From: a virus
DNA: 46,323 nt
Virus record (IMG/VR): IMGVR_UViG_3300037493_004418
Span: 1 to 46,323 of that record
Reading direction: 5' to 3' (one strand)
Made by a program: the position numbers and the translations under genes. Under the pieces are notes generated by a model that saw only the letters and a list, made by a program, of their open reading frames with translations, had not been told where the DNA came from and ran no database searches. Positions within the stretch are counted from its first letter, which is position 1. Every line of letters begins with the position of its first letter. Below are positions 3,370 through 46,323 of this stretch, piece by piece.

Positions 3370-4131
3370 TTATTTTTTATCATCAATAGAAATTAATGTT
3401 CTATTTTGAAAATATTTTATTTTGTCACCAATTTTTGCGTTTTTATATTCTTGAATAAATTCTTGAATTTGGTTTTCATTCCATCTGATTGAAGCTGCTG
3501 CATTCTTGAATTTATTTTCAATGTCAGTTCTAATCATTGAATAATGATCCATTAAAAGTGAATCATCCATTACAAAGATGTGTGTTGACGTGTTTACCTT
3601 AACAGATGGATCAACAAGAACTGGATATTTTACAGATGATGAAATGCTGGTTAATGGGTACATTTTATGTATGAATGGCATATAATATGATTCAATTGGT
3701 TCTAAAATCCAGTTTTTTTGCTTGTAATATGTGCGCATTCTAGTCACAATTAGATCATATTGATCTGAATTAATTATTTTTTTTCCTTCCAGAATCATTT
3801 CAGGTGAATAAAAATGATCAGCAGCAGCCATAATGAAGTGTGTTGAACCTTCTGATTTTGCATGTTGAATCATCATATTGTGTTTTACACGTTCATTTTC
3901 CTTGGTTGAAAGCGTTAAATCAGGTGTAAATTCATGAATTTCAAAGTTTAACGCCTGTTGTGTATTAAAATCAATTAATGGACCATTAATGAAGTTATGA
4001 TGTCCTTTATTTGATATGGTTTGAATGAAAATTGATATTTGATCAACATGATTTTTGTGATGCTTAATTGAATCAAGTAACATTTGAACATCATCACCAG
4101 TCCAAAATGTGTATAGTAAGTGCAATTTCAT
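3370..4131 (-). CDS. Glycosyltransferase-like protein (GT-A fold)
   Basis: Probably transfers a sugar from a nucleotide donor. The N-terminus (MKLHLLYTFWTGDDVQMLLDSI) has the beta-strand and helix pattern of family 2-like transferases. IMAAADHFYSP near residues 155-165 lies where the metal-binding DxD motif is expected, but only one Asp is present, so catalysis is less certain than for its neighbours. At 253 residues it is typical of small phage transferases. It is the last gene of the minus-strand accessory block and reads towards the terminator at 3283-3318. Acceptor unknown. Confidence 0.6.
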   Translation of the reverse strand: MKLHLLYTFWTGDDVQMLLDSIKHHKNHVDQISIFIQTISNKGHHNFINGPLIDFNTQQALNFEIHEFTPDLTLSTKENERVKHNMMIQHAKSEGSTHFIMAAADHFYSPEMILEGKKIINSDQYDLIVTRMRTYYKQKNWILEPIESYYMPFIHKMYPLTSISSSVKYPVLVDPSVKVNTSTHIFVMDDSLLMDHYSMIRTDIENKFKNAAASIRWNENQIQEFIQEYKNAKIGDKIKYFQNRTLISIDDKK

Positions 4132-4154
4132 AATTTATTTTTGTTTGGTTTATT

Positions 4155-4553
4155 TTAAAAAGGAACATCACTAACTGGATTCTGTTTTACAATTTTAGTT
4201 GTAAATTCCATTTTTAGATTGTACCTGTATTCTAGTGATTTTTTAACGTTTTGTGTATTTGTAAGAACTTGAATATTTCCGATTGTGTAACCAAGATGTT
4301 CTTCTTTTCTATCAATGTGAAAAGAATCTTTTGTTTTTCCTTTGCCAAGCATGTATTCTGTTTTAACACAAAACGCTTCAAATTGTTCAAAGGTCAAATC
4401 AAATTGTTTTCCACGTCTTTTTGCATTTTGTCTTAAATTATTGAATGCATTTTTAATGGGGTTTTCAGTTCTGAATTTCAATTTCAAACACTTGTGGCAT
4501 AATCCAGAACAGTGTTGATTGTTTCTGCAATAGTTGGTTACACATTTTTGCAT
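4155..4553 (-). CDS. HNH endonuclease
   Basis: Probable free-standing homing-type endonuclease. The core FHIDRKEEHLGYTIGNIQVL followed by TNTQN and KK fits the HNH signature: His and Asp of the first strand, the GY..GN turn, and the terminal Asn/Lys. The N-terminus has paired cysteines (C4, C9, C15, C19, C22) that may form a zinc knuckle. At 132 residues it has the usual compact size. It sits among glycan genes with no obvious functional link, which suggests that it is a selfish insertion and may have helped the block spread. Confidence 0.75.
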   Translation of the reverse strand: MQKCVTNYCRNNQHCSGLCHKCLKLKFRTENPIKNAFNNLRQNAKRRGKQFDLTFEQFEAFCVKTEYMLGKGKTKDSFHIDRKEEHLGYTIGNIQVLTNTQNVKKSLEYRYNLKMEFTTKIVKQNPVSDVPF

Positions 4554-4665
4554 CTGTTTTTTTTTTTTTGCGGTTTCATTTTTCTGTATTTATTAATTGT
4601 AAATATATAAAAATATATTAAAGTATATTTATTTTTATGTAAACTTTATTTAAAACATCAGTAAA

Positions 4666-5178
4666 TCAACACTTTAACTTTGCAGGGTTTCCATAAACAA
4701 TTTCATTTTCATTCACATTCTTAACAACAACAGATCCAAGTCCAACAAGTGAATTTTCACCAATTTGAATCCTATTTCTAATTGTAACACCAAGTTTTAT
4801 TTTTGATTTCCTTCCAATCACAGCGTGTCCACCAATGATTGTTCCAGTGCAAATTTCACAATCATCACCAACAAACGCATCATGTCCAACGTGTGAATGT
4901 GCCATTATTATATTGTTGTTGCCAATAAAAGTTATTTTATTCTGTTCAAAAGGGCGTTGGATTGAAACGAATTCACTAATTACATTATTATTTCCAATCT
5001 GAACATGGCCTTTAAAATCCTTTTGTGATACACCACGCATTTCACCATTTGATCCAATAACGCAATATGCACCAATTGTGTTTCCTGTTCCAAGAATAAC
5101 GTTTGGATGAATTATTGCTGTTTTGTGAATATCGTTTCCATCAATATTGATCCAATCATGGTTGTATAAATCATTCAT
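4666..5178 (-). CDS. LpxA-like hexapeptide-repeat acyltransferase
   Basis: Left-handed beta-helix transferase that probably acetylates or acylates a sugar. Many hexapeptide repeats are visible from residue 18 on (IHPNVI, IGAYCVIG, IGNNNVI, IGENSLVG). MAHSHVGHDAFVGDD near residue 100 closely follows the catalytic His segment of LpxA (AHIAHDCTVG), and GGHAVIG matches the next coil. At 170 residues it lacks the C-terminal helical domain of true LpxA (about 262), and it ends in YGNPAKLK, as sugar O-acetyltransferases do. It lies 5 bases downstream of the amidotransferase gene, so the two are co-transcribed. Substrate unknown. Confidence 0.8.
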   Translation of the reverse strand: MNDLYNHDWINIDGNDIHKTAIIHPNVILGTGNTIGAYCVIGSNGEMRGVSQKDFKGHVQIGNNNVISEFVSIQRPFEQNKITFIGNNNIIMAHSHVGHDAFVGDDCEICTGTIIGGHAVIGRKSKIKLGVTIRNRIQIGENSLVGLGSVVVKNVNENEIVYGNPAKLKC

Positions 5179-5183
5179 TTTTT

Positions 5184-6524
5184 CTATATTTTATTTGTTA
5201 TAAATTCAACCCACTGATCATTATTCATGTATGGATTTGAAAAACCTTTTTTCATTCCATTAATCACATCTGGATGCAGTCCTGAAATACCCTTCAAGAT
5301 ACGTTTATTTTTTAAATATTCATCCGGAAGTGATAAAGCAAAATCAACAAGATCATTATCAAGTAATGGATACCTTGTTTCCATTGTATGAAATCCAGCA
5401 ATTGCATCTTCAATGTTCAGAACACCATTCAAAAATTTTAAATCATAATCAAAATGTGAAATGTCATATTGCGGACCATCATTTGATGTTCTTTTGATTA
5501 CTTTATTTATTGGTTTGTTAATTCTGTGTGGATAACCACCAAAGAATTCATCACCACCAGCGCCCGAATAAATAACGGTGCAAAATTTTGAAGCAAATTC
5601 AGTTAATGCAAAATTTGTGTAACTTGAACCAACTTTTGGATCCTGGATGCATTGAAATAATTTATTTGAATATTCATTGAATAGTTCTTTGTTGCAAATC
5701 AATGAATAATGTTTACCGGTTGAATTTAATTTTATGTTTTCAATTTCAGAATAGTTTGAATCCACATAATCCATTGAAAAGCTATATTCAGGCTTCATGA
5801 ACCTTGCAATTATTCCAGAATCAATTCCACCAGACAAGAAAACACAATCATTTAGTTCTGTTTTGTTTCTATCACATGATTGAATGAATAATTTCTTCAA
5901 CTGAATCTTTGCTTCATTGTAGGTAATATTAATTTTTTCAGGAATTACAAGTGATAATTTTCTTGTTCTGGTTATTCCTTTATAAATTGAATTTACATTC
6001 ATAACACCAAGATCGTATTTGAATTGGTTCAATTTATCTTGATCAATTTCAATTTCAGGACATGCAGCAAGAATTGATTTTATTTCTGAAGCAATGAATA
6101 TTTTATTTCCTTTTTTATATTCATATAGTTTTTTGATTCCAAATTTATCAGTGAATGTGGTCCATTCTGTTCCATTAAAATATAATACAGCAAAAAAACC
6201 ATTCAATTCATTTAGTTTTTTTCCTTTGAATTTATCCAGGAACTTTGCCAATAATTCTGTATCACATTTTGAATCTAATTTGATGTTGTATTTTTCAGCT
6301 AATTCATTGTAGTTTGAAATAAATCCATTCATCCACACCATATAATTATTTGATGTGAATGGTTGCATTTTAGCTGTTGAATCGGTTATTGGAAGCCAAC
6401 TGAAATTCACAAATGAATTTGCAGTTTTTGTTACACCTTGAAAAATTCCACGTTTTGATGAATTATCAATCATTGATTGAATATCTTTCAAAGAACCATT
6501 TAAAACAGCGTTTATTCCACACAT
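5184..6524 (-). CDS. Asparagine synthetase (glutamine-hydrolysing)-like amidotransferase
   Basis: Both catalytic halves of the AsnB family are present. The N-terminal glutaminase starts MCGI, with Cys2 as the expected nucleophile, and contains LNGFFAVLYF and ASEIKSIL. The synthetase half has the PP-loop SGGIDS near residue 230, SGAGGDEFFGGYP and ETRYPLLDNDLVDFAL. It should use glutamine ammonia to amidate an acyl-adenylate. At 446 residues it is about 100 shorter than E. coli AsnB (554), as in amidotransferases of glycan clusters. With glycosyltransferases and an LpxA-like protein beside it, amidation of a sugar acid or aminoacyl-sugar is more likely than free asparagine synthesis. Its start overlaps the upstream gene by 13 bases. 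Confidence 0.88.
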   Translation of the reverse strand: MCGINAVLNGSLKDIQSMIDNSSKRGIFQGVTKTANSFVNFSWLPITDSTAKMQPFTSNNYMVWMNGFISNYNELAEKYNIKLDSKCDTELLAKFLDKFKGKKLNELNGFFAVLYFNGTEWTTFTDKFGIKKLYEYKKGNKIFIASEIKSILAACPEIEIDQDKLNQFKYDLGVMNVNSIYKGITRTRKLSLVIPEKINITYNEAKIQLKKLFIQSCDRNKTELNDCVFLSGGIDSGIIARFMKPEYSFSMDYVDSNYSEIENIKLNSTGKHYSLICNKELFNEYSNKLFQCIQDPKVGSSYTNFALTEFASKFCTVIYSGAGGDEFFGGYPHRINKPINKVIKRTSNDGPQYDISHFDYDLKFLNGVLNIEDAIAGFHTMETRYPLLDNDLVDFALSLPDEYLKNKRILKGISGLHPDVINGMKKGFSNPYMNNDQWVEFITNKI

Positions 6525-7450
6525 GTGATTTGTTTTAAAATTTTATCAGCAATAGGATCGTTTATAAATGATGTATTTTCCCACAATGCAAATGGTGTCA
6601 TGTTCACATTTGATTTAATATCGAATGCATAAACATTAAATTGTTTTAATGAAAAAATAAATGATGTGTGTGGTGTTGTTTTCAATTTATCTTGCATTGA
6701 ATTATCAAGAATTTTTGAGTGTTTTATTTGCCATGGTTGCCAGTTCCATTCATTCATTAATCTTGCAGAAATCAACCTACCAGCACCGCATGTGTGGCCA
6801 ATTCTTCTGGAATCAGAATATCCACCCCAATAAGACATTTTTTTCGATATAGTGTCGTAAAAATACCAATCCAACACTGCAACATAATCAACTTGTAGGT
6901 TTATTTGTTCAACATAAACACAAAGAAGTTCATTTGTAATTAGATCATCAGAACCAACACACAAAACATAATCACATTGAAGTTTTCCAGCAAGTATTGT
7001 TGTAATGTTCATTTTTGAAGCCAATGGATCATTTTCAATTTCAATATAAATGAATCCATGATTTTCAACCATGTGTTTTGATTTTACACCTTCAGAACCA
7101 GCAACAATTACAATTATTTCCAAATCAGGATGATTCAATTTCTTTGTTGCATTTGCAAACATTTCAAAAACTTCAGGACGTTTCCAGCATGCAGTGACAA
7201 TTGCCATGCGTTTTTTCCATTTTGGAAGGTTTTTTATTTTTGAATCTTCAATGACTTTATTTGCTTGAATTTTGCATTGTTGTTGTTCTTCTGGATCAAT
7301 TTCACCATCGTATTCTTTTATGAATCCATTTGCAATTAAACTTGGAATGTTTGCACGAATGAAAAAAGATTCTAAATACACTTCATTTCTTTTTAGAAGT
7401 TTTCCGCCACGTGAACTGATGGTTTCATGCTTTATAATGTATGATTTCAT
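6512..7450 (-). CDS. Glycosyltransferase with N-terminal FluMu/gp35-like domain
   Basis: Residues about 80-300 form a GT-A transferase: KRMAIVTACWKRPEVFEMF begins the nucleotide-binding fold and CDYVLCVGSDDLITN provides the DD metal site. The first 45 residues are unusual. They resemble the N-terminus of the phage's own head-region protein at 27708-28100: NIPSLIANGFIKE here against NIPDLIKNGFLSE there, with further matches upstream. That small domain occurs in Mu gp35-type proteins. The fusion may place the enzyme on the virion or its assembly intermediates. It overlaps both neighbouring minus-strand genes, indicating tight co-translation. Confidence 0.8.
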   Translation of the reverse strand: MKSYIIKHETISSRGGKLLKRNEVYLESFFIRANIPSLIANGFIKEYDGEIDPEEQQQCKIQANKVIEDSKIKNLPKWKKRMAIVTACWKRPEVFEMFANATKKLNHPDLEIIVIVAGSEGVKSKHMVENHGFIYIEIENDPLASKMNITTILAGKLQCDYVLCVGSDDLITNELLCVYVEQINLQVDYVAVLDWYFYDTISKKMSYWGGYSDSRRIGHTCGAGRLISARLMNEWNWQPWQIKHSKILDNSMQDKLKTTPHTSFIFSLKQFNVYAFDIKSNVNMTPFALWENTSFINDPIADKILKQITCVE

Positions 7451-8085
7451 TTTAAAACGGTTGTGTAAAAGTTAAATGATTCTTGATCCATGTGTTTTTG
7501 AATGAACAATGATTCATTATCTTCATTCACGTATCTATGAAGATAATCAATATGATTCCTTCCACCACATTTTCCAACACCATGTTTAATTCCAATTGAA
7601 ATTATCTTTTCAGGTTTAAAAAGTATTCCTTTTAAAGTTTTCCAAAGATGTAAATCTGTATATGGTTCATGATCCACGCACCAATGGAAATCAAGGTCAG
7701 CTTTCAAAAGTGTATTCATAGCTGATGCACGCCTTGAATGATTCATTATTAAATGCGCTTTTATTCCAATATGGTAATAAATAGTGTAATTAGTTCCAAG
7801 TATATCAGGCTTATCACATTCAATCCATTTATTAACCATTGTTTCAATGTAATCAGATGAATAATAATCATCATTTTCAATCAGTAAAACACAATCAAAG
7901 TTTTTGTTTCTGAAATATTCATATCCTATTCTGTAACGTTGTGTAATATCAACATTATGATTCAACGGTTCATAATTCACAACATGAATATGCGCTTTCA
8001 TTGTTTGGTTTTCCATCATTCTTTTGCAATTATCCAAGAATTTTGGGCGGTCATTTCTATCTGGTATTAAAATTCCTATCTTCAT
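7447..8085 (-). CDS. Glycosyltransferase family 2-like protein
   Basis: The first gene of the minus-strand block. MKIGILIPDRNDRPKFLDNC is a typical GT2 N-terminus, and CVLLIENDDYYSSDYIE near residues 66-81 carries the metal-binding DD pair. A later WCVDHEPYTDLHLW segment could hold the catalytic Asp. At 212 residues it is a minimal catalytic domain with no membrane segment, so it is probably cytosolic. Its stop overlaps the next start (ATGA). The ATG at 8085 lies 4 bases after a minus-strand TAAATTTG promoter box, so its mRNA may be leaderless. Confidence 0.8.
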   Translation of the reverse strand: MKIGILIPDRNDRPKFLDNCKRMMENQTMKAHIHVVNYEPLNHNVDITQRYRIGYEYFRNKNFDCVLLIENDDYYSSDYIETMVNKWIECDKPDILGTNYTIYYHIGIKAHLIMNHSRRASAMNTLLKADLDFHWCVDHEPYTDLHLWKTLKGILFKPEKIISIGIKHGVGKCGGRNHIDYLHRYVNEDNESLFIQKHMDQESFNFYTTVLK

Positions 8086-31891: not shown

Positions 31892-32695
31892 TTAAAAAAT
31901 ATTTAATGGTTTAACATCATCACCATATCCACACCAATTACCTGTTTTTTTGGCTTCTGAATAACTTTGAAGGTCCTGAAGGTATATTTCCCTCCCGTTT
32001 GCCATTGTGTCATTGTCAGCGTAAAATAAATTGACTAAATACGGTGGTGTTTTTTCAACAGCTACAAATATAAATGAATCAGGATTCATTCCATTGTGCA
32101 TTAAGCCTTCAAAGTAGAATGGTGCTTGTATATTGTATCTATATTTCCGCGCGTCCCTTCTGAATGCTTCTGTTGATGCATCTTCTGTTGATTTAAGATC
32201 AAGAACTATTCTTTTAAAGGTATTATATACATCTGGTTTTATTTTACATTTAACGCCCGTTTCTGGATTGGTCCAATAAAAAGGGTGTTCAATCAAACAA
32301 TTGAATGGATTCAATAAATCTTGCAACAGTTTATTTTTCTTAATTGAATTTGCCATTCCTTCAATCTTGATGTAGTTTTCAAGTGATAAAGGAAATTTTC
32401 CTTTGTTATTTTCAAGGAATGTTTTCTTTGCCATTCTTGAACCACTACCACTGAATTTTGGTGAAATAACAAACTGATCAGCAAATAAATGATTTTCCAA
32501 TACAAACGTGTGAAATGCACTTCCAAATATTAATGCATCTGATTTTTCTTCATCATATTCTTCTGATTGTCTTATAATCAAATATTCATATTCATAATGT
32601 GCTGGTGATTTGTTAACCAGTTTTAATCCTGAATTTGATATTTCATCAATTGATTGGTGGTATAACTTGTTTTCGTCCATATCAAATAAATTCAA
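31892..32695 (-). CDS. RecE-like PD-(D/E)XK exonuclease
   Basis: Produces 3' single strands for RecT. The N-terminal SIDEISNSGLKLVNKSPAHY and DALIFGSAFHTFVLENHLF (residues 15-75) match the RecE C-terminal nuclease family. GVKCKIKPDVYN provides the motif Asp, and FKRIVLDLKSTEDAST near residues 168-183 gives the D-x-K catalytic pair (DLKS). RKYRYNIQAPFYFEGLMHNG completes motif with Q and Y. The length of 267 residues fits the minimal nuclease domain. The gene overlaps the upstream small membrane gene by 14 bases. Confidence 0.88.
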   Translation of the reverse strand: MNLFDMDENKLYHQSIDEISNSGLKLVNKSPAHYEYEYLIIRQSEEYDEEKSDALIFGSAFHTFVLENHLFADQFVISPKFSGSGSRMAKKTFLENNKGKFPLSLENYIKIEGMANSIKKNKLLQDLLNPFNCLIEHPFYWTNPETGVKCKIKPDVYNTFKRIVLDLKSTEDASTEAFRRDARKYRYNIQAPFYFEGLMHNGMNPDSFIFVAVEKTPPYLVNLFYADNDTMANGREIYLQDLQSYSEAKKTGNWCGYGDDVKPLNIF

Positions 32696-32882
32696 GAATT
32701 AAACCTGTTATTCCAAAGATTAACATCATTATCCAAAAAGCTATTTTAAATTCCTTTGAATTGAATAATCTTATCATTTCACGTTTAAATTGTTCAAGCC
32801 TGAAATCATACATTACAAATGCACCTTTCAACGTGTTCTTAAATTCGTGTCTGTATTTAAATTCAATAAATGGTTTTTTCAT
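32682..32882 (-). CDS. Small membrane protein, first gene of the recombination operon
   Basis: Unrecognised 66-residue protein: a basic N-terminal half (residues 1-42) and one membrane helix at the C-terminus (FKIAFWIMMLIFGITGLILE). It is the promoter-proximal gene of the minus-strand operon, 18 bases after a TATGTTTG box. Its end overlaps the RecE-like start by 14 bases. Function unknown; first position suggests early expression. Confidence 0.6.
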   Translation of the reverse strand: MKKPFIEFKYRHEFKNTLKGAFVMYDFRLEQFKREMIRLFNSKEFKIAFWIMMLIFGITGLILEFI

Positions 32883-40393: not shown

Positions 40394-41548
40394 ATGACAA
40401 AAATTAATGAACCAATTGTGAAGTCAACTAAGAAAAAAACAGATGAAACAACACCTGTTATTATAACAGTTGAAACATTTGAAGATTCATCATTGAATCA
40501 ATTAAATGACTATTTATTGACAACAGATCAAGTGATTGATCAAGCAAAGAATTCAATGATAATGGATTCAATTGGATCTGATGAAAAACTGAATCAATTC
40601 ATTGAATCTTATTCATCATTGATAATTTCAGGAATTGAAGATATGACAACATACAAGGTTGTGAACGCTGCAATTTCTGAAGTAAAGAAAATGCGAACAA
40701 ACCTTGAAAAGAAACGCAAGGAATTGACAGCACCAGCACTTAGATTTCAGAAAGCCTTAATTGATGTTGAAAACATTTATTCACCTAAATTAAAGGAACT
40801 GGAAGAAAAATTGAAAGCTGAAAAAACAAGGATTGATGATGCAAAAGAAGCAGCAAAAAAAGTGCTTTATAATGAACGCGTGAACAAGTTGGTTGCAGCT
40901 GGCTATGAACTTGCAAGCGGTTTTTTCATTTGTGGTGCATTACAGGTTCCAACAACTGAAGTGACTGAATATTCAAATGATGAAATTGAATTTTATGTTC
41001 TTGAAGGCACGAAAGAACTTGAGCGCAAAAAAGCTGAACAGCTAAGAAAAGATGAACAAGAACGGTTTTTAAAAGAACAACGTGAAGCACTGGAAGCTGA
41101 AAAATTAGAACTGGCAACAATGAAAGCTGAAATGCTTCAAATGAAAGCTGATATGCTGAAGGAACGCCAAGAAATACAGGCGCAAAAAACAGCACTTGAA
41201 ACAACATATGAAACGGCTATTGAACAACCACATGAACCAGTAATGAACCCAAACCCAATTGAAGGTAATGGAATGATTGTAATGGAAGGAACACCACCAC
41301 CAGCATCAATTCAAATGGCTGAACAGTCAAAACCAATAATACAAAGCACATCAGAAAAGATTGCAGCATTGAATAAAAATGAACCAATAATTCAACCTGT
41401 TATTATTCCAGCTGATGTTCCAATTGTCGTTTCAGAAGAATTCAAGCGCGGTTTTGATTACTGCAAAATTGAAGTGTGCAATATCTTAAAAACAAGAGCC
41501 GATTTGAAGTCAAGAGCAGAATTTATTGAAGCAATAAACCTTCTATAA
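40394..41548 (+). CDS. DUF1351-like coiled-coil phage protein
   Basis: A 384-residue protein of a type often found with phage recombination genes. AISEVKKMRTNLEKKRKELT followed by APALRFQKALIDVENIY near residues 95-130 resembles the DUF1351 core. A long charged coiled coil follows (residues about 200-275, LEAEKLELATMKAEMLQMKA), then a Pro-rich linker and a small helical C-terminal domain (VCNILKTRADLKSRAEFIEA). Function is unknown in the family; association with RecT suggests DNA metabolism. Its stop overlaps the next start (TAATG). Confidence 0.65.
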   Translation: MTKINEPIVKSTKKKTDETTPVIITVETFEDSSLNQLNDYLLTTDQVIDQAKNSMIMDSIGSDEKLNQFIESYSSLIISGIEDMTTYKVVNAAISEVKKMRTNLEKKRKELTAPALRFQKALIDVENIYSPKLKELEEKLKAEKTRIDDAKEAAKKVLYNERVNKLVAAGYELASGFFICGALQVPTTEVTEYSNDEIEFYVLEGTKELERKKAEQLRKDEQERFLKEQREALEAEKLELATMKAEMLQMKADMLKERQEIQAQKTALETTYETAIEQPHEPVMNPNPIEGNGMIVMEGTPPPASIQMAEQSKPIIQSTSEKIAALNKNEPIIQPVIIPADVPIVVSEEFKRGFDYCKIEVCNILKTRADLKSRAEFIEAINLL

Positions 41549-41820
41549 TGAAAGCCACAACTAAAACTGCAATGAAAGCAACAACAAAAATCATAATAGT
41601 ATTGACATATTCTTTTTATGTGTCAATACTTGTTTTGTTCTTTTATTTGTGTATAACGAACGGAAATAAAAAACAAACTGTAATTCCTGAAGAAACAATT
41701 GAATATGAAAAACCTGTCACGATTACTGATTCAAACAGGATTGATTATGATTGGGTTAATGATAATGAATTGCATGTAAATAAACGAAGTGTATATGATT
41801 ACATGATTAATGATAAATAA
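41548..41820 (+). CDS. Small membrane protein next to the cassette insertion
   Basis: A 90-residue protein with one membrane helix near residues 13-33 (IIIVLTYSFYVSILVLFFYL) after a Thr/Lys-rich start with a MKATTKTAMKATTK duplication, then an acidic soluble tail. No family recognised. Its stop codon lies inside the left arm of the first cassette hairpin, so the hairpin may once have been its transcription end. Confidence 0.6.
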   Translation: MKATTKTAMKATTKIIIVLTYSFYVSILVLFFYLCITNGNKKQTVIPEETIEYEKPVTITDSNRIDYDWVNDNELHVNKRSVYDYMINDK

Positions 41821-41892
41821 CGGTTACAGCTATACGTCAGGTTTTGTTTTTCACAAAACTTGAGTATAGGTGGTGTTACAGGTAGTAGGGAT
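41804..41892. repeat. Cassette hairpin H1 (attC-like)
   Basis: Left arm ends GATAAATAAC at 41821; right arm begins GTTACAGG at 41875. Between them CTATAC (41830) pairs with GTATAG, TCAG with TTGA (one G-U pair) and GTTTTG with CAAAAC, while G836 of the left side (41836) is left unpaired, like the extrahelical bases of attC sites. The outer arms do not match each other: the left arm matches 44127-44145 instead, and the right arm matches the left arm of H2. Confidence 0.75.
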
Positions 41893-41940
41893 TTCTACCA
41901 CAAAAGTTAATTAGAAGTACAAACAAAAAAGAATTTAAAA

Positions 41941-42885
41941 ATGAGTGGGGGCAAAAAAGAAAAAATTAACGTATTGTCATTATTTGGCGGTATAGAGTGT
42001 GGAAGAGTAGCACTTGACAGAGAAAATATAGACATTAATAAATATTACAGTAGTGAAATTTGCAAGGATGCTATAAAAGTTGCAGATGGAAATTATAGCG
42101 ATATTGTGCAACTTGGAGATATAACGAAATGGAAAGAATGGGATATTAATTGGGGAAGTATTAATCTACTACTTGCTGGATTTCCTTGTCAAAGTTGGAG
42201 TTTAGCAGGGAAGCAGAAGGGGATATTAGATGAACGTGGAAAACTTGTTTATTGTATGATTGATATACTAAGCGAGATAAGGAAAACAAACCCTGATATT
42301 AAGTTTCTGTTTGAAAACGTAAAAATGAAACCTGAATATTTAGATTTTTTGAATGAAAAAATTGGAGTTTACCCTATACGTTTTAATAGTAAAGATGTTT
42401 CTGCTGGTATGCGAGATAGATATTATTGGACTAACATTGAGAATGTGAAACCACTACCGAAAAGGGATATTAAACTTAGTGATGTTTTAGACAGCGGAAA
42501 AGTAGATAGAGAAAAGGCTTTGTGTATTACAAAAAGATACGAGGGTTTTAGTGGTTCTCAATCTTATTTAAGACGTAGGTATTTTGGCAAAAGTATGGGG
42601 CAAGCTGTTTTTGAGAATTGTGAACCGATTGAGCAAATGGAAATGTGGAAAGCTGATGACCGAAAAGAATATAATACAGTTGGTATTATAAGAAGTTTAA
42701 CCACAAGAGAATGTGAGAAAATACAAACACTACCAGTTGGCTATGTTGAGAATATAATAGGTGATAATATGAAAGCAAAGGGTGTGATTGGGAATGGATG
42801 GACAGTAGATGTGATTGCTCATATTTTTTCTTTTTTAAAAGGGGGGGGGGAATTTTTAAATTCTTTTTCTAACGAAAATGTTTAA
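41941..42885 (+). CDS. C5-cytosine DNA methyltransferase
   Basis: Methylates cytosine at carbon 5 in a sequence not predictable here. Motifs are complete: LSLFGGIECGR (I, residues 13-23), AGFPCQSWSLAG (IV, catalytic Cys near 83), FENVKMK (VI), RDRYYWTNIE (VIII), then a target-recognition region, RSLTTRECEKIQTLPVGY (IX) and GNGWTVDVIAHIFSFL (X). The length of 314 residues is typical for short enzymes. No restriction enzyme is nearby, so it is an orphan, probably protecting phage DNA. A run of ten G near the 3' end (42841-42850) alters only the tail if it varies. It lies in cassette 1. Confidence 0.92.
   Translation: MSGGKKEKINVLSLFGGIECGRVALDRENIDINKYYSSEICKDAIKVADGNYSDIVQLGDITKWKEWDINWGSINLLLAGFPCQSWSLAGKQKGILDERGKLVYCMIDILSEIRKTNPDIKFLFENVKMKPEYLDFLNEKIGVYPIRFNSKDVSAGMRDRYYWTNIENVKPLPKRDIKLSDVLDSGKVDREKALCITKRYEGFSGSQSYLRRRYFGKSMGQAVFENCEPIEQMEMWKADDRKEYNTVGIIRSLTTRECEKIQTLPVGYVENIIGDNMKAKGVIGNGWTVDVIAHIFSFLKGGGEFLNSFSNENV
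42841..42850 (+). repeat. Ten-G homopolymer in the methyltransferase gene
   Basis: A G10 run follows the motif X codons. Loss or gain of one G would change only the last 8 to 15 residues and the stop position. Such runs are rare in this AT-rich DNA and are prone to slippage. Confidence 0.9.
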
Positions 42886-42897
42886 TCGAAGCACTAC

Positions 42898-43055
42898 ATC
42901 CCTATTACTGCTAACGACTTGCTGCCTGGCGCACGGCCCGACTTTTTAAACAAATCGTTACACCGAAGTTAAGATTATTTTGATTCAAATTAATCGTTGT
43001 TTCGAAGCAAGATTTGAGGGTTGGCGCCAGACAGTTGTTAGCGGTATTATTTTTT
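42898..43055. repeat. Cassette hairpin H2 (attC-like, long)
   Basis: Left arm ends CTAAC at 42915, right arm begins GTTAGCGG at 43037. Inside, CTG and CTGGCGC (42922-42932) pair with GCGCCAG and CAG (43024-43034) with one mismatch; about 90 bases form the centre. The left outer arm (ATCCCTATTACTGCTAAC) is complementary to the start of cassette 1, not to the right arm. The right outer arm is complementary to the left arm of H3. Confidence 0.72.
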
Positions 43056-43102
43056 GTATATTTCCAAAATATTATCTAGCACTTTAATTAAAATAAAAGC
43101 AG

Positions 43103-43110
43103 TACATTTG
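43103..43110 (+). promoter_or_regulatory. Promoter -7 box inside cassette 2
   Basis: TACATTTG fits TAnnTTTG and lies 16 bases before the first gene of the cassette. The cassette can therefore be expressed wherever it lands. Confidence 0.6.
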
Positions 43111-43126
43111 CACCAATTTTTATGAC

Positions 43127-43468
43127 ATGGCTAAGAAAAAAGAGGAGATCATAACAATTCATAATATTAAAGGTACGAATCATCGGCAAATACATGTTGA
43201 TGGAGCGAGTGCAGGAATTACCCCTTCAGGATATATTAATGTTAATTTTTATAGTGAAAGAGGAGTGATTCCAAAATCTACATCATTTAAAATTAAGGAA
43301 GATGGCACTTTAGGATCTGTTGTAGGTCATTCTGAAGAATCTAAAGATGGAATTGTGAGAGAATTTGACTTTGGAATTTTTGTAGACATCAATACATGTA
43401 AAAGTTTAAGACAACTTTTGGATCAAAAAATAAAAGAATATTATCAATATACTCCCGAAAAACAATAA
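43127..43468 (+). CDS. Hypothetical protein, first gene of the toxin cassette
   Basis: A 113-residue soluble protein. IHVDGASAGITPSGYINVNF followed by YSERGVIPKSTSFKI is a beta-rich pattern I associate with uncharacterised proteins of genomic islands, often ahead of small antitoxin-like genes, but I cannot name a family. It lies 2 bases upstream of the next gene, so the three genes are probably one operon. Function unknown; a regulatory role in the toxin module is possible. Confidence 0.65.
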   Translation: MAKKKEEIITIHNIKGTNHRQIHVDGASAGITPSGYINVNFYSERGVIPKSTSFKIKEDGTLGSVVGHSEESKDGIVREFDFGIFVDINTCKSLRQLLDQKIKEYYQYTPEKQ

Positions 43469-43470
43469 CT

Positions 43471-43740
43471 ATGTATAATAGGCATTCAACATCGTTTACT
43501 GAAGATAGTGGCAATTTATATCTCACTTTGGGAGCAATTGGATTATCATTGATAAGTTACAGTGAACCTAAAGAACTCGAGCCAATTTTGAATAGGACAA
43601 ATTATGAACAAACAATAGATTTCTCTAGGGCTATGGACTTTGACGATGAATTAACAAATCACGCAATGATGCTTGCCCAAACAAGTTTGTCGGATGATTG
43701 GGATAATGAGGATAGTGCAAATTGGGAATCTTATTTGTGA
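43471..43740 (+). CDS. Probable antitoxin of the MazF/PemK module
   Basis: An 89-residue acidic protein directly upstream of the toxin. Its C-terminus (MLAQTSLSDDWDNEDSANWE then SYL) has the Trp- and acid-rich pattern of disordered antitoxin tails that wrap around the toxin. The N-terminal 60 residues (LYLTLGAIGLSLISYSEPKE) are not a recognisable DNA-binding domain and may bind the protein encoded upstream. Assignment rests on position, size and acidity. Confidence 0.6.
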   Translation: MYNRHSTSFTEDSGNLYLTLGAIGLSLISYSEPKELEPILNRTNYEQTIDFSRAMDFDDELTNHAMMLAQTSLSDDWDNEDSANWESYL

Positions 43741-43747
43741 TTTTATC

Positions 43748-44077
43748 GTGAATTATAATCAAGGGGATATTGTTCTGGTTCCATTTCCATTTACAGATGG
43801 AGCCAACTCGAAACCAAGACCAGCAATTGTTGTCTCCAATTCTAAAGTAAATTCGACTCAAGACGTTATTTTAGCACAGATAACATCTCAGCCACGTGCT
43901 GATGATTTTTCGTTTGCTTTAGAAAATTCTTCATTAGACATACCATTACATCAGTCAAGTCAAGTGCGTTGTCACAAAATATTTACTATGCAAAAGTCTG
44001 TGATAATAAAAAAAATATCTTCTCTTAAATCTTCAGGCATTACATCATTAAAGTCAAAAATAACGGGTTGTTTATAG
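43748..44077 (+). CDS. MazF/PemK-family mRNA interferase toxin
   Basis: Endoribonuclease toxin. NYNQGDIVLVPFPFTDGANS followed by KPRPAIVVSN at the N-terminus is the hallmark of the MazF/PemK beta-barrel, including the catalytic Arg of the 'K.RPa.vvs' strand. QVRCHKIFTMQKSVIIKKIS carries the second conserved strand. The GTG at 43748 is chosen because it gives the usual start just before the barrel; the frame is open back to 43673 inside the antitoxin gene. The length of 109 residues is typical. In cassettes such modules stabilise the DNA that carries them. Confidence 0.88.
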   Translation: MNYNQGDIVLVPFPFTDGANSKPRPAIVVSNSKVNSTQDVILAQITSQPRADDFSFALENSSLDIPLHQSSQVRCHKIFTMQKSVIIKKISSLKSSGITSLKSKITGCL

Positions 44078-44078
44078 T

Positions 44079-44145
44079 TACCGCTAACTGTCGTATAAGC
44101 GCCCGTTTCAATGGCGCTTATACTTTGTTATTTATCTGTTAATCA
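44079..44145. repeat. Cassette hairpin H3 (attC-like)
   Basis: TAAC at 44085-44088, a four-base spacer, a perfect 11-bp stem (GTATAAGCGCC with GGCGCTTATAC), a three-base spacer and GTTA at 44127. The left outer arm TACCGCTAAC is complementary to the start of cassette 2; the right outer arm GTTATTTATC plus TTAATCA is complementary to the left arm of H1, 2.3 kb away, with one bulge. Confidence 0.78.
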
Positions 44146-44657: not shown

Positions 44658-45332
<675 letters not shown>

Positions 45333-45959: not shown

Positions 45960-46310
45960 TGTTGTTGTCATGTCTGGACACTATGAATGAATGATAATGA
46001 TGTACTAATGATGGATGATAGGTGTGATGACATGATACAATGATGATAATGTATAATGAAGCCTTCAATGACATGTATCAAAAGATGTGCATGAATGATT
46101 GAATGATGATACGTAACGACACTTAATGATAGTTAATGTACGATGTGATGTAATAAACTATTTAAGTGCCTTAAAACGAATGAATGAATAGATGGTGTGA
46201 TTCACCTTGTAATTATTTATTTATATTTATGTACACGCGGCTGTTTATTGTGTTGTTTATTTATAGCCTTGAAATATAAGGTACTCCCAGCGTTTTCAAG
46301 GGCTGGCGCA

Positions 46311-46323
46311 ATAAATGCGAAGC
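46311..46323 (+). repeat. Terminal overlap with the first 13 bases
   Basis: The last 13 bases (ATAAATGCGAAGC) are identical to bases 1-13. A chance match of this length at both ends is very unlikely, so the sequence is a circular or circularly permuted genome with an assembly overlap. Confidence 0.85.

Follow-up and report, generated by a model that had tools for sequence, protein, structure and literature searches.

The phage record IMGVR_UViG_3300037493_004418 carries, at 41818-44130, an array of two cassettes and three attC-type hairpins in register (the window, that is, the whole stretch of DNA that was analysed, comprises its 46,323 nucleotides). We read the array as holding an integron-type cassette, an attC hairpin coupled to a C5-cytosine DNA methyltransferase (MTase) gene, that was inserted site-specifically into an attC-like hairpin the phage had before, and we give this reading a probability of about 75%. 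That this unit, cassette 1, is mobile MTase cargo is strongly supported, and comparison with other viral records indicates that its conserved part is the cassette ends and not the MTase core, which has been exchanged repeatedly. The landmarks of the array are as follows.

41548-41820, plus strand: phage gene of 90 aa with no assigned function; its 3' end is the left flank of the array.
41805-41821, plus strand: left flank arm GATTAATGATAAATAAC, complementary with one indel to 44127-44144.
41818-41878, plus strand: attC0 hairpin, TAAC...GTTA, from hairpin scans and shuffle folding.
41821-42914, plus strand: cassette 1 as the preferred mobile unit (attC0 body plus MTase, AA|C to AA|C), placed from the ends of eight other arrays.
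41876-43037, plus strand: cassette 1 as first drawn, G^TT to G^TT, with GTTA at 41875-41878 and at 43037-43040.
42912-43040, plus strand: attC1 hairpin of 129 nt, from a hairpin scan and shuffle folding.
42915-44087 in the AA|C parse, 43038-44127 in the G^TT parse, plus strand: second unit, toxin-antitoxin-like.
44085-44130, plus strand: attC2 hairpin with the loop CGTTTCAATG, from a hairpin scan and shuffle folding.
44127-44144, plus strand: right flank arm GTTATTTATCTGTTAATC, beyond the array, complementary to 41805-41821.

The 46.3-kb phage encodes a terminase large subunit, a tail sheath, and a primase, and the nearest relatives of its terminase are those of Cellulophaga and Flavobacterium phages; it is probably a contractile-tailed phage with a Bacteroidota host. 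A minus-strand gene block at 3370-8085, within the structural region, encodes proteins that by eye resemble glycosyltransferases, an asparagine synthase, and a hexapeptide acyltransferase, and perhaps serves sugar modification of the virion or the host surface. A minus-strand gene at 44658-45332 contains a long stretch of aspartate codons, which is shorter in the sister phage L002. The end of the window (46280-46323) and the end of L002 share their terminal 18 nt (GCGCAATAAATGCGAAGC), which may be a real genome end.

All three hairpins have the RYYYAAC/GTTRRRY boxes and the imperfect stem of integron-cassette attC sites, with attC0 departing from RYYYAAC at its R'' (AAATAAC), and the window, with at least two attC sites and no intI nearby, belongs to the CALIN class. 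Folding was far better than in dinucleotide shuffles for all three, with z -6.5 and -4.0 for attC0 and z -4.5 and -4.7 for attC2; attC1, TGCTAAC...CTGCCTGGCGC//GCGCCAGACAG...GTTAGCG, reached z -4.3 on the plus and -2.8 on the minus strand, with none of 200 shuffles equally good. A strict scan for TAAC/stem/GTTA, which gave about 0.35 matches per strand in each of 30 Markov-shuffled windows, found attC0 and attC2 on the plus strand and attC1 and attC2 on the minus strand, all within 2.3 kb and at array-like spacing, along with two isolated minus-strand matches elsewhere in the window. A looser scan was unspecific (5-12 chance matches per shuffled window) and by itself cannot tell attC2, at 19.5, from chance. 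An attC-like site at 32614-32710 was rejected, as it has no array context and lies near background, and an Rfam scan of the region returned sub-threshold chance matches only.

The right half of attC0 (GTATAGGTGGTG|TTACAGG) is identical in the viral record L021, and attC0 is probably the attC belonging to the MTase unit. The loop of attC2 resembles those of the short attCs of LR745206, L020, and L036 (CGTTTTAATG), and attC2 is probably the site that the phage already had. When the two flank arms are joined with the attC2 body, they fold with z -9.65 (none of 200 shuffles as good), and we read this complementarity as the likely trace of a hairpin that predates the insertion.

The first-pass annotation had outlined cassette 1 at 41876-43037, and these coordinates are exact, with GTTA at both bounds. 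It was also right that the 1162-bp interval contains just one gene: the only ORF of at least 60 aa (41941-42885) encodes a complete C5-MTase. As it had also observed, no promoter is visible by eye, and the first bases of the cassette (GTTACAGGTAGTAGGGAT) can pair, apart from small mismatches, with ATCCCTATTACTGCTAAC at the foot of the cassette's own hairpin. The cassette ends in ATTACTGCTAAC and not ATTACCTGTAAC, so that its own R''/R' match is imperfect. The gene and its surroundings comprise the following features.

41875-41940, plus strand: conserved 5' leader of the MTase cassette, 66 nt, of which 61-65 are identical in three other viral records.
41926-41942, plus strand: left arm of an inner inverted repeat, AAAAAGAATTTAAAAAT, ending in the start codon.
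41941-42885, plus strand: C5-cytosine DNA methyltransferase of 314 aa (PF00145, TIGR00675).
42852-42868, plus strand: right arm of the inner inverted repeat, ATTTTTAAATTCTTTTT, within the last codons.

The MTase matches PF00145 (E 3e-31) and scores above the TIGR00675 cut-off. Motifs I (FGGIECG), IV (PCQS), VI (ENV), VIII, IX, and X (GNGWTVD) were recognized by eye, and the PCQ and ENV motifs within the PF00145 domain identify it as a C5-cytosine MTase. By sequence, its nearest solved chains are DNMT3A catalytic domains, and M.HaeIII aligns over almost the full length. As to a restriction partner, cassette 1 has no second ORF of at least 60 aa, and none of the adjoining ORFs matches a nuclease. 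Presumably, the enzyme protects phage DNA from restriction by methylating it. Ten consecutive G (42841-42850, plus strand) directly precede the codons of the conserved C-terminal tail; slippage within them would alter only the last MTase residues, and other cassette copies have short mixed G/A runs at this position.

The second unit encodes three proteins.

43127-43468, plus strand: ORF of 113 aa without family match.
43471-43740, plus strand: ORF of 89 aa in the antitoxin position, without family match.
43748-44077, plus strand: PemK/MazF-like toxin, GTG start assumed (PF02452, E 5e-18).

The start and end of cassette 2 are complementary, as in cassette 1 (TTAGCGGTA and TACCGCTAA). Around 43103-43110 it has a TACATTTG motif that resembles the Bacteroidota -7 element, so cassette 2, unlike cassette 1, may have its own promoter.

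The ends of the MTase cassette recur between attC hairpins, in different genomic contexts, in four other viral records: LR745206.1, found by a DNA search of phage records, and L020, L021, and L036 (L036/L035), found from patterns of the two cassette ends. LR745206.1 is a 635-kb uncultured phage in which a Dam-like MTase unit and a small ORF precede the C5 unit, with an attC before each; L020 is 73 kb long and has about 17 attC sites and several MTases. Relative to the window, the leader is 92-98% identical in LR745206, L020, and L021, and the C-terminal tail (codons 281-314) is 88-89% identical in nucleotides, whereas the core between them (residues 16-280) has only 47-51% nucleotide and roughly 35-45% amino acid identity. 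The nearest relative of the core is instead L003 (68% in nucleotides, about two thirds in amino acids), an ordinary phage MTase gene whose ends are unlike those of the cassette. Near-identical ends around divergent cores imply that the ends stayed and the core was exchanged, and, since this pattern is seen in no fewer than four further viruses, DNA-modification genes appear to pass between phages as ready-made modules. The proposal that the C5-MTase moves as a cassette thus stands in that its ends recur in other viruses and the sister phage differs, but it had to be corrected in which unit moves and which part is conserved; what a search for the 1.16-kb unit recovers elsewhere is the ends between attC hairpins, with a different MTase core. 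The opposite pattern, the same gene between conserved phage flanks without hairpins, was not encountered, the hairpin-less core relatives L003 and L005 being other lineages. In plasmids, the cassette region had no counterpart except a 57-nt MTase match. Most of the records compared are metagenomic and, as for the window record, come without a statement of completeness.

The sister phage L002 is 84% identical to the window in nucleotides as far as the last codons of gene 41548-41820. Conservation runs to ATGATTAAT, divergence follows, and where the window has its array, L002 has a PAPS-reductase-like gene (PHROG 424, E 2e-47) with an attC-type hairpin. This gene (L002 7425-8327) starts within the hairpin's loop and continues through the stem, so that the attC encodes the protein N-terminus. 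Queries with the primase, gene-40394, and the exact flank DNA recovered only the L002 contig as a further relative of the window phage.

These comparisons leave next to no room for the idea that the hairpins are ordinary phage terminators around a plain moron gene, with GTTA/TAAC ends by coincidence. MTases of the same family do occur in many phages, including some in this comparison that lack hairpins, but three hairpins stand in register, the segment is replaced by another cassette in L002, and the same ends enclose other cores in other viruses; recurrence with such precise ends disfavours ordinary terminators, and we rejected them.

Which end of the unit carries the hairpin was assessed in eight arrays from a few phage lineages (L002, L036, L040, LR745206, the two arrays of G001, P12002L, and P12002S). 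A canonical integron cassette recombines at G^TT on the coding strand and has its attC downstream of the gene. All eight arrays end on the right with a bare ...AA|C, after which no hairpin rises above background (scores 6.6-17.3; background median 13.7, 95th percentile 20.8). The left-end hairpins score 19.7-31.6 in the six arrays scored, and those of P12002L and P12002S are present by eye. Two pairs with common flanks locate the boundaries. L036 and L040, relatives with 77% aa identity in the adjoining gene, have ...CATAAC as their common left flank and TAACTA... as their common right flank, with different cassettes in between; joining the L036 flanks and comparing them with L041 and L042 gave no clean empty site. 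The Polaribacter phages P12002L (L037) and P12002S (L047) are near-identical lytic phages that differ by whole MTase cassettes: they share ...TTACAAC on the left and are 100% identical from AACAACGG on the right, with one insert carrying Dam and a DNA-modification (Mom-like) gene and the other two adenine MTases and two ORFs. The region upstream looks like an extended series of short cassettes that have AAC/GTTG boxes. Within each pair the left hairpin differs, from which it follows that the hairpin arrived with the insert. Because eight arrays end at the bare AA|C and two pairs differ exactly between such points, the mobile unit is probably [attC + gene], 41821-42914 in the window, and not a gene with a trailing attC; bounded by coding-strand AA|C, which reads G^TT on the opposite strand, it would have the hairpin ahead of the gene.

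In the canonical arrangement, the mobile unit would instead be the gene with its own attC1 (41876-43037), which recombined at the coding-strand G^TT and entered an attC0 already in place. Such a unit suits the extra bases of attC0 and attC1, which lie on the left arms, as G^TT on the coding strand predicts, and the hairpin on the right side of the window; G|TTRRRY junctions have moreover been verified for phage attCs with IntI1 (Qi et al., PMC9892861). Beyond the bare right ends and the differing left hairpins, what speaks against it is that the hairpin travelling with the C5 gene is the upstream and not the downstream one: LR745206 and L036 have almost the same attC before the gene (by eye, 38 of 41 nt match), the window and L021 share GTATAGGTGGTG, and the downstream sequences differ within both pairs. 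We consider the canonical arrangement unlikely, at somewhat better than one chance in five. Since the window has an attC at both ends of its array, its polarity is undecidable from the window alone, and with the extra bases on the canonical arm we infer it from the other arrays.

The same pairs bear on another route, in which homologous or illegitimate recombination brought the cassettes over from a host integron array and no integrase acted on the phage. Most of these phages have no detected recombinase, the partial similarity of P12002L and P12002S extends past the left boundary within the array, and the complementarity of the window flanks could stem from a larger circle or a rearrangement. 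This route is improbable, though, because flank identity ends at AA|C on both sides in two related pairs with unrelated inserts, and identical precise ends are found in unrelated phages.

A second set of repeats lies inside the cassettes. All 12 MTase or modification cassettes examined have a complementary stretch at their start and end, near-symmetric in 11, with scores of 12-19 in 11 and of 9 in the twelfth, compared with a median of 8 and a maximum of 12.5 in 220 cross-family controls; five of the 12, all with one C5 chassis, do not count as independent, and the L020 N6 case is a mismatched alignment. Other cassettes (toxin-antitoxin, PAPS, and two small ORFs) score 7-12. These inner repeats could lengthen the hairpin in a single-stranded circle, pair with the start codon in mRNA, or be a relic of gene capture.

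Neither an integron integrase (TIGR02249) nor a tyrosine recombinase (PF00589) was found in the window record, which thus lacks the intI and attI on one replicon that mark a complete integron, the completeness of the record not being given. TIGR02249 had no match in the five records searched, and PF00589 (Phage_integrase) was absent from six of seven. The exception, G001, has a 432-aa tyrosine recombinase without PHROGs match, no TIGR02249 match, and phage-type genes for an anti-repressor, an exonuclease, and a dUTPase; it could be a prophage or another integrated element. The 73-kb record IMGVR_UViG_3300042311_000920, with phage-type genes, has about 17 + 4 attC-type sites (L032 2429-12475 and L033 1724-4886), several MTases, and, between its two arrays, a 432-aa tyrosine recombinase that is not an integron integrase by HMM. 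A pattern from the foot of attC1 (TAACNACTTGCTGCNTGGCG) was absent from viral contigs and had seven matches in 85k genomes, about the chance expectation and with no clear attC context, so a bacterial source of the cassettes was not found.

As no integrase was found, and since the insertion polarity and inner inverted repeats are unlike those of textbook cassettes, another hairpin-based element might be considered, such as an IS200/IS605-like single-strand transposon or a phage recombination system that merely resembles attC. We regard this as quite improbable. The ORF list of cassette 1 holds no transposase, and hence no Y1 transposase of the IS200/IS605 type; the long arrays have RYYYAAC/GTTRRRY-like ends and attC architecture; in nearly every unit, as in attC, start and end are complementary to each other; and IntI1 accepts a related site, P12002L_attC2, as a substrate (PMC9892861).

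With no recombinase in the record, mobility of the integron-type cassette must come from outside, and a host integrase acting in trans is the simplest source of activity because Qi et al. 2023 (PMC9892861) found in an assay that IntI1 recombined P12002L_attC2. The integron integrase of a host would most likely have acted on single-stranded phage DNA, inserting a folded attC hairpin together with a single C5-MTase gene into the resident attC-like hairpin after gene 41548-41820. Two cassettes would have been inserted side by side; comparison shows that the MTase core between the fixed ends has been exchanged repeatedly. More tentatively, and at rather less than even odds, the arrays may together form a modular anti-restriction system of Bacteroidota phages, attC-first and of opposite polarity, in which conserved inverted-repeat ends would be the chassis for C5, Dam-like, N6, N4, and Mom-like enzymes moved in trans by a host integrase or another recombinase.

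Such cassettes offer a concrete route for a one-step change of phage DNA modification. With the natural pairs P12002L/P12002S, L036/L040, and window/L002, the exchange of cassettes in phages can be tested directly. The attC-first polarity is relevant to which attC strand is used in vivo, and fixed ends with exchanged cores bear on how genes become cassettes. Phage cassette arrays with attC sites and MTases are known, and restriction escape has been proposed for them (Qi et al. 2023, PMC9892861). Replacement of the core while the ends stay fixed, the attC-first (AA|C) polarity, and the P12002L/P12002S exchange are not reported in the accessible portion of that paper, and we did not find them described in the literature searched.

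The closest known systems are CALINs of virulent phages, above all that of the lytic Bacteroidota phage P12002L (PMC9892861), which, like the array of the window, lacks an integrase and has MTase cargo. In our analysis it also has the attC-first layout and the inner inverted repeats of the MTase cassettes described here, in a different phage and with a different MTase. Orphan phage C5-MTases (L003 and L005, Cronobacter phage GAP32, and the coliphage gene haeIIIM) share the catalytic domain; L003 and L005 sit in ordinary phage operons, are not bounded by hairpins, and have neither the leader nor the C-terminal tail of the cassette. With chromosomal and mobile integron cassettes, the window has in common the single-gene unit, an R''/R' attC hairpin with small bulges, a head-to-tail array, and a toxin-antitoxin neighbour. 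It differs from them in that no intI was found on its replicon; in comparable phage arrays, moreover, inner inverted repeats flank the MTase genes and the attC leads the gene, so that gene direction is opposite to the usual one relative to the crossover.
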